DNA of 32,288 nucleotides from Bacteroidota bacterium (lineage in GTDB: Bacteria; Bacteroidota; Bacteroidia; Chitinophagales; UBA2359). The stretch spans positions 8,136 through 40,423 of the forward strand of contig JAHDBT010000001.1 in assembly GCA_020630215.1 (NCBI GenBank), written 5' to 3'. Below the pieces are notes generated by a model. It was not told the DNA's origin. It worked only from the letters and a program-made list of their open reading frames with translations, and did no database searches. Positions 18,005 through 29,844 of the stretch are shown here, piece after piece. Position 1 is the stretch's first letter. Each line of letters begins with the position of its first letter. Made by a program: the position numbers and the translations under genes.

Positions 18005-18174
18005 GGGTCGCACCTACAGTGCTAGGTTATTGGATACTTTTTTTCTATAAACAGGTTGTACCTACGGCACAAAAGTCAAAAATTAAATTCCCAATAATAA
18101 TGAATCACCAAATCGTAAATTCCGAAATCTCGTAGAGATGACCGACATTGTAGCCCTGGAATTTATTCCATGGG
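18005..18174. repeat. REP-like fragments in the spacer
   Basis: Two related 18-mers around CACCTAC (18005-18022 and 18053-18070; about 12 of 18 match) are followed by a hairpin CCCTGGAAT-TT-ATTCCATGGG at 18154-18174. Sequences of this kind recur between genes in Bacteroidota (recollection, not checked). The interval 17927-18169 has no gene. Confidence 0.45.
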
Positions 18175-18850
18175 AAAATCAACAATCAACAATCAAAAAT
18201 CAAGAACCACATATCAAAAATCTCCCCCCCCTAAATGCGTTAATTGCAATATTCCATTACTAGGGCCGTACTGCTATTACTGTGGTGAAAAAGTAGTGTG
18301 AAAAAACGACTAGTGAAATGAAAAAAATAAACTCCACCAAGATGTGCGATTGTTTTTTTCAAGGTATGAACGAACGGTTTTTACGCAGTAAAATAAATAT
18401 CCTTTTGGATATTTAAGTGTAGAGAACCGCTTGCGGATAAAATAAGCACAGTAATAGCGCGCTATTACGAGCATTTGCAACGCCGCATTGGAAAAAAGAA
18501 TAATCAAAGTGGTGGAGTTTATTTTTTCTCATTCACCTATACGATTAAGCATATTTTTGGGCAAGTCTTTAGTTTTGTAACCAACATCGACTCTAAAGTA
18601 TTTAAAACCTTTCAGTACTTATTTTTTTAACCAGGGCGATTAACACAAGCTCATATCGCAGGTGTGTGTAAGCCTTTGTGAAACCCATTCAGCTTTTTGT
18701 ATTGGCCAATATTTTGTTTTTCCTGTTCCTCAACGATTTTGATTTGTTTAGGTCGCCAGCTAAATGGTTTTTTGGTTCTCCAGAACGGATGCTTAAAGCA
18801 GAAACTATTGGAAAAGTGTATGAAATATTATCAATCTGTTTTTATTGCCT
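18170..18850 (+). pseudogene. DUF3667 family gene, broken by an insertion and further lesions
   Basis: Before the insertion the frame gives a Cys cluster C-V-N-C...YCYYCGEKVV (18236-18298), the zinc-ribbon-like start of DUF3667 proteins. After it, the frame continues with YTIKHIFGQVFSFVTNID, then TFQYLFF-stop-PGRLTQAHIAG, then in another frame VKPIQLFVLANILFFLF, the family's PG / KP / hydrophobic-segment pattern. Lesions: TGA at 18299, a 224-bp element at 18313-18536, TAA at 18628, a frameshift near 18670-18678, and loss of the 3' end, which runs into the gldJ terminator. The ATG at 18170 lies inside a hairpin and may not be the original start. DUF3667 proteins are small membrane proteins of unknown role. 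It should be non-functional. Confidence 0.8.
18313..18536. mobile_element. 224-bp MITE-like element with terminal inverted repeats
   Basis: The left end begins GTGAAATGAAAAAAATAAAC and the right end, reverse-complemented, begins GTGAATGAGAAAAAATAAAC; both continue CTCCACCA, giving imperfect terminal repeats of about 27 bp. CTA occurs on both sides (18310-18312 and 18537-18539). Removing the element plus one CTA joins GAC TAT ACG ATT AAG in frame with the DUF3667 sequence on both sides. Inside are a hairpin AAATATCC-TTTT-GGATATTT (18395-18414), nested in a longer imperfect stem from about 18374 to 18434, and a perfect palindrome GTAATAGCGCGCTATTAC (18451-18468). It has no coding capacity, so it would need a transposase supplied elsewhere. 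Source family unassigned. Confidence 0.75.
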
Positions 18851-18856
18851 CTATGC

Positions 18857-18902
18857 AAAAAAAAATCCCCAACGATACCAAAAATGTACCGTTGGGGATT
18901 TG
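18857..18902 (-). terminator. Intrinsic terminator of gldJ
   Basis: Read on the minus strand, the stem AATCCCCAACGGTAC pairs with its near-complement and is followed by nine T. It ends about 55 bp after the gldJ stop. Confidence 0.88.
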
Positions 18903-27633: not shown

Positions 27634-27699
27634 AATGGAGTGCGTAATTGCAATATTAAAAAAATTAAACCCTGCACAACTTTTGCTATCTAAGGTATA

Positions 27700-27843
27700 G
27701 TGAGAAAATAAATTTACAAGTTTTTACAAAGAGGTTTTCTAATAGACAAGGGGCAAATAGGAGTAAGAGCAGCGCTATTGCGAGTATTTGGAACGCAGGA
27801 TATTAGGAAATATCGAAGTGGAAAATGTAATTTATTTTTGTAC
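27700..27843. mobile_element. Short inverted-repeat element of the 18313 family
   Basis: The left end GTGAGAAAATAAATTTAC and the right end (reverse complement GTACAAAAATAAATTAC) are imperfect inverted repeats. The interior at 27768-27796 carries the family core GCGCTATTGCGAGTATTTG, also present at 18455-18483 and, inverted, at 29739-29767. Length is 144 bp, non-coding. It fills most of the 318-bp gap 27564-27881. No target duplication is evident. Confidence 0.55.
27833..27840 (+). promoter_or_regulatory. -7 element inside the right end of the repeat element
   Basis: TATTTTTG is a perfect TAnnTTTG, 42 bp ahead of the ATG at 27882, and lies within the terminal repeat of the 27700-27843 element. 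No TTTG is found at the ideal distance, so activity is uncertain. Confidence 0.4.
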
Positions 27844-27881
27844 GATGCCTAAATAGCAGTTATTTCATTAAACATATAACC

Positions 27882-29683: not shown

Positions 29684-29844
29684 AGTAACGCATAAATAAT
29701 AACTCCGCCATTTCTACTTGATTTTTTGCACTTATCTTGCGTTGCAAATACTCGCAATAGCGCTGCTATTGCTGCGTTTTGCGCCTTGTTTAAGCACAAA
29801 ATCTCTGCGTACAAATTGTCGGACTTATTTTTTAAGCGTTACTT
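29684..29844. mobile_element. 161-bp inverted-repeat element of the 18313 family
   Basis: The left end AGTAACGCATAAATAATAA and the right end (reverse complement AGTAACGCTTAAAAAATAA) both continue with sTCCGmC. Pairing continues inward through GATTTT...GC to a central palindrome GCAATAG-CGCTG-CTATTGC, so the whole element can fold as one hairpin. The reverse strand carries the family core GCGCTATTGCGAGTATTTG at 29739-29767. The inner TIR word AATAA-CTCCGCC resembles ATAAACTCCACC of the 18313 copy. Non-coding; it fills much of the 382-bp gap 29630-30011. Confidence 0.65.

Follow-up and report, generated by a model that had tools for sequence, protein, structure and literature searches.

The window, the whole 32,288-nt stretch analysed here from the genome of a Bacteroidota bacterium, carries the two parts of a DUF3667 pseudogene separated by a short noncoding element (Table 1). 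Type IX secretion genes are present in the window as well, and a strong hairpin at 18864-18900, between the pseudogene and a GldK-like gene, is probably a terminator for convergent genes. The element between the pseudogene parts has the features of a MITE: terminal inverted repeats of 27 nt that are 85% complementary, a target-site duplication, multiple copies with common ends, and a lack of coding capacity, with no ORF of at least 100 aa overlapping positions 18313-18536. Folded as a single DNA strand, the 230-nt stretch with the MITE reaches -42.1 kcal/mol, compared to -20.8 ± 3.3 kcal/mol for shuffled sequences (z = -6.6).

Table 1. Features of the MITE, its host pseudogene and the other core-bearing elements in the window.
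Feature	Position	Strand	Details
MITE, family 1 (GTGAAA...TTTCAC-type ends)	18313..18536	+	224 nt, noncoding; 98% identity to copy L002
CTA, left member of 3-bp target duplication	18310..18312	+	From sequence; equal 3-bp flanks in 49/57 copies
CTA, right member of 3-bp target duplication	18537..18539	+	From sequence; 49/57 copies
Left terminal inverted repeat	18313..18339	+	Inner part covaries with right repeat among subfamilies
Right terminal inverted repeat	18510..18536	-	Complementarity to left repeat; covariation of subfamilies
Conserved hairpin core of window MITE	18434..18491	+	Covariance model R1, 41.6 bits, E 9e-9; 5' arm broken by second module
Second hairpin module (TATGAACGAACGG...CCGCTTGCGG)	18365..18436	+	Stands in place of part of the 5' arm of the core; boundaries by eye
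DUF3667 pseudogene, N-terminal Cys-cluster part	18236..18312	+	TGA at 18299; 56% identity to residues 12-36 of G005 homologue
DUF3667 pseudogene, second part	18540..18773	+	PF12412 at 18589-18699; lacks the C-terminus, has one frameshift and TAA at 18628
Decayed core-bearing element (GGTATAG...CGATGCC ends)	27694..27849	+	Flanks TAA/TAA; core 27742-27804, 32.7 bits, E 3e-6
Core-bearing element, end family 2 (GTAACG...CGTTAC)	29685..29842	-	Flanks TTA/TTA; core 29731-29793 on minus strand, 69.6 bits, E 9e-17

Sibling copies were sought in the draft assembly of the same genome, which comprises 7.4 Mb in 767 contigs and from which short repeats are missing. BLAST with the 224-nt element gave 73 matches, and a pattern for the left end matched 115 times, versus 4 times with the reversed control. 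All 57 full-length copies that were cut from fetched loci start with GTGAAA and end with TTCAC; their lengths range from 144 to 291 nt and are mostly 154-155, 224 and 229 nt. The 3-bp flanks are identical in 49 of them (TTA in 31, TAA in 16, CTA and TAG in one each). Because TTA or TAA is found on both sides of 47/57 copies, the duplication expected of PIF/Harbinger or IS5-type elements, the CTA at the window MITE is a rare form of the TTA/TAA preference. Two copies with unequal flanks (L007 and L008) carry an extra GGGATG on the left end, and their flanks counted from there are TTA/TTA, while at L032 two copies stand in tandem with one TTA in common. The first-pass annotation had delimited a 224-bp element with inverted ends of about 27 bp, had taken CTA on either side as its target duplication and had suggested a search for further genomic copies with the same ends and 3-bp duplications; the 57 copies with the same terminal bases, and the 49 with equal flanks, agree with it on each of these points.

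The 155-nt subtype is highly abundant and uniform, and at least 20 contigs among those examined break off within it, some 50 nt from the left end. Since the assembly breaks at this uniform subtype, its real copy number is higher than the number counted. Contig ends in G000, e.g., L102, L103 and L112, are assembly breaks of this kind. Between the window MITE and L002 there are four base differences, each of them within the core, and at those four the window MITE is identical to L009/L010. It is a mosaic of an L002-type left part and an L009/L010-type core with no private changes. The lack of private mutation in comparison with L002 and L009/L010 indicates a young copy and supports the recent mobility that had been proposed.

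Removing positions 18313-18536 together with one CTA in silico joins the Cys-cluster part of the host gene to the part matching PF12412. After masking of its stops and by-eye bridging of the frameshift, the joined frame used as query scored 49.8 bits against PF12412 (Pfam cut-off 27), and the raw DNA to the right of the MITE alone was also above the cut-off (34.7 bits, 18589-18699). Aligned with an intact DUF3667 homologue of another genus, the joined frame showed 43% identity over 99 residues with an ungapped junction, and the earlier proposal that the deletion restores a DUF3667 frame thus holds. The TGA at 18299, the TAA at 18628 and a single frameshift (near homologue residue 82) were all recovered as annotated. 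However, homology is limited to residues 12-115 of the 275-residue intact homologue, and since the C-terminal half of about 160 residues is missing, the claim that only point lesions remain is incorrect.

The order of events at this locus was also considered. Intact DUF3667 homologues sit elsewhere in the genomes of relatives and span the junction position without a gap. A check of the orthologous locus found a PAP2 neighbour in 18 of 19 relatives (all of other genera) with no DUF3667 or GldK gene within 1.5 kb, and synteny is not kept. The first-pass proposal that the DUF3667 gene lost its function through the insertion, with the other lesions arising later, would fit the young copy, the intact duplication and the ungapped joined frame, but we consider it rather unlikely: the gene has two stops, a frameshift and a lost C-terminal half, yet the element is without private change, and a recent hit on an old pseudogene fits at least equally well. 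The lesions carry no date relative to the insertion, which leaves the phrase "followed by gene decay" unsupported.

Viewed as a single insertion, the MITE is an ordinary event. The more interesting part is a conserved hairpin core, which the first-pass annotation overlooked. The element boundaries, the duplication and the recent mobility given in that annotation stand. The core is a 62-nt hairpin at the centre of the 150-155-nt copies. A comparison of 20 distinct own-genome versions showed two-sided changes at six pairs, and 29 covarying cells were counted versus 9.7 in shuffled alignments and 0-2 with slid structures as control, a count that across mobile copies includes common ancestry many times over. 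A covariance model of the core, built solely from the GTGAA copies of this genome, identified at least 147 cores in it.

In the window MITE, the 5' arm of the core is interrupted by a second hairpin module. In sibling copies this module occupies three different positions within the core, and elements from another genus in the same family have it too. On inspection, its stem shows compensating differences. The module is embedded in the core, its position varying, in the window MITE (18365-18436) and at L045, L047, L048 and L358.

The core is not tied to one set of ends. Three core-bearing elements lie within the window, each with different inverted ends, and in the whole genome at least six different inverted ends surround the one core: GTGAAA, GTAACG...CGTTAC, GGGATGG...CCATCCC, AGTAGTTGG...CCGACTACT, GGCATAG/GGCAAAT and GTGGTTTGTC...GACAGACCAC. 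GGAACG is probably a further end family with the core. For the element at 29685-29842, sibling cores in the genome number in the tens. The AGTAGTTGG...CCGACTACT family has 2-bp TA flanks, and the flanks of the other end families are mostly TTA/TAA. Locus L355 is chimeric, with a GGGATGG left end, a GTGAA-type right end and TTA/TTA flanks, and the change-over lies in or near the core. Typical MITEs have conserved ends and variable interiors; the core-bearing MITEs reverse this pattern, with a conserved interior and varying ends.

The core also occurs in another phylum. A BLAST search of plasmids with the 224-nt element gave a Cupriavidus match that is confined to the core, which forms there the centre of a palindrome with the ends AGTCCACTGAATC...GATTCAGTGGACT. 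Other matches were from Mitsuaria, Comamonas, Variovorax, Martelella and more Cupriavidus plasmids. When the own-genome core model was applied to nine Burkholderiales plasmid loci, which had been found through BLAST rather than through the model and were absent from its training, eight scored 30.9-56.3 bits (E 1e-5 to 6e-13). At the ninth (L179), the match was confined to the ends of a Cupriavidus element. In the cross-phylum alignment, 12 pairs covary (85 cells versus 25.5 shuffled), and because this alignment was fitted to the covariance model and leans toward structure, the covariation is support rather than proof. The unpaired A, A, GA and AAC of the core are kept in 27-28 of 28 sequences of the same alignment.

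A degenerate core pattern was found in at least 119 stretches of genome contigs, mostly from Comamonadaceae and other Burkholderiales, with a few in Gammaproteobacteria and Desulfovibrionaceae bins. As these stretches were selected by the core, they inform on its context only and cannot test conservation. Recognizable inverted ends surround the core in 63 of the 70 pattern-selected stretches with enough flank, and the kinds of ends include TCA/TTA-flanked GAGGCTGAGAG.. and GAAGGTGTGAATG.., as well as GGCAACGCTGAATAAG.., GGGACCCTCTGCACGAATC.. and CTAGTGTGGTG.. types. Within the Bacteroidota, 4 of 395 sampled genomes gave a core match, which indicates a patchy distribution. Another Bacteroidota genome (G200) has nine core copies in palindromes with TACGAATTACATTTATAATTAACGG-like ends (L302, L305, L307, L309, L311, L313). 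At BLAST sensitivity, E. coli genomes had no match to the core, and viral and phage collections had no match to the core or the element.

PIF/Harbinger elements prefer TTA/TAA and are kin to IS5. A 3-bp target duplication is described for PIF/Harbinger (PMC2213677). The TTA/TAA duplication therefore points to an IS5/PIF-Harbinger-like DDE transposase that would act in trans. The domains PF01609 (DDE_Tnp_1), PF13359 (DDE_Tnp_4) and PF13586 (DDE_Tnp_1_2) were not found in the draft genome, and since repeats are missing from this assembly, their absence is weak evidence. Among Burkholderiales loci, a search for matching long end pairs around an ORF gave one weak pair (L261) with no recognizable transposase inside, on visual inspection of the ORFs. 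The hairpin shape also suggested single-strand transposition as in IS200/IS605, which was rejected in view of the true 3-bp duplications.

We favour, with some confidence, the reading that a recent MITE lies in a DUF3667 pseudogene and belongs to a group defined by a functional hairpin of about 62 nt, whose ends are exchangeable and which is moved in trans. On insertion the MITE duplicated 3 bp, here CTA instead of the usual TTA/TAA, in a DUF3667 gene whose present form is a pseudogene, with an IS5/PIF-Harbinger-type transposase presumably acting in trans on the MITE ends. Different end families may follow different transposases through change of ends. Recombination within the core would permit the exchange of ends and halves, as suggested by the window mosaic of L002 and L009/L010 parts and by the chimeric L355. 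The core may be retained because its folded form, either RNA or single-stranded DNA, benefits the element; most likely it would serve as a binding structure for a factor from the host or encoded by the element, either in the course of movement or within read-through transcripts. Judged from sequence comparison, the core would thus act as a functional nucleic-acid module to which different ends can be joined. The broader proposal of a cross-phylum MITE superfamily, with the folded core as functional heart (a bound or processed RNA or single-stranded DNA) and ends that are swapped to switch transposases, is put forward more tentatively, and we are slightly inclined to doubt it.

The main alternative is an ordinary bacterial MITE in which the core was inherited from one ancestral element, the ends diverged or recombined, and the hairpin is kept without function by a mutation bias, namely hairpin-templated correction of imperfect palindromes. 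Templated correction does occur in long palindromes, many copies are recent, and covariation is found over the entire element and not in the core alone (51 pairs, 15 two-sided). Such correction should, however, erase mismatches, yet the unpaired A, GA and AAC and a bulged A recur in different end families and in both phyla, and the core stays similar while the ends differ. Because random palindrome correction would remove these kept mismatches, selection on the folded form is favoured and we regard the functionless hairpin as doubtful. Alternatively, the core could be a separate small mobile or structured element, such as a palindromic repeat that depends on another enzyme for its movement, which entered unrelated MITEs again and again. 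This reading could explain one core with many ends, and the second module does clearly lie at different core points in siblings, but it is very improbable, since in the copies examined the core is central in the palindrome and continuous with the outer stem at a nearly constant element length of about 154-163 nt, and none has its own target duplication or lies within one arm.

Returning to the functional core with exchangeable ends, several known systems are similar in part. The bcr1 element of Bacillus cereus is a mobile repeat whose secondary structure is conserved and covaries; it is restricted to the B. cereus group and has one end set. Compared by description rather than by sequence, the elements found here resemble it in mobility and in conserved covarying structure but have several end families. 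Tourist-like PIF/Harbinger MITEs and bacterial IS5-family elements share the TTA/TAA 3-bp duplication and short ends starting with G, whereas here the draft genome has no matching transposase. Bacterial MITE families such as NEMIS, RUP, bcr1, ERIC and Nezha are likewise 70-300 nt long, noncoding and present in high copy number, with inverted ends and a foldable whole element (PMC3733652). They are described by their ends, whereas the elements of this genome have one core in common across at least six end families, and this core is also found in another phylum. REP/REPIN sequences with RAYT transposases are similar as high-copy palindromes in non-coding DNA (PMC3733652, PMC3116915). The elements described here do not belong to that class of 20-40 nt tagged palindromes, as they are about 150-290 nt long with long inverted ends and true 3-bp duplications.

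A core with exchangeable ends is not ordinary. No covariance model of Rfam 15 matched the element or related copies, and the core is described in no paper found among the open-licence literature searched, a scope that leaves out most subscription journals. Because the transposase recognizes the ends of a MITE, classification is built on them. Were a group to hold on to its interior while its ends vary, that interior would have to serve a purpose, a possibility seldom raised for bacterial MITEs. The core is in addition a searchable marker, as the model links Bacteroidota and Burkholderiales elements that an end-based classification would separate. It also lends itself to a direct test, as mutations can target the conserved unpaired bases or the compensated stems independently.
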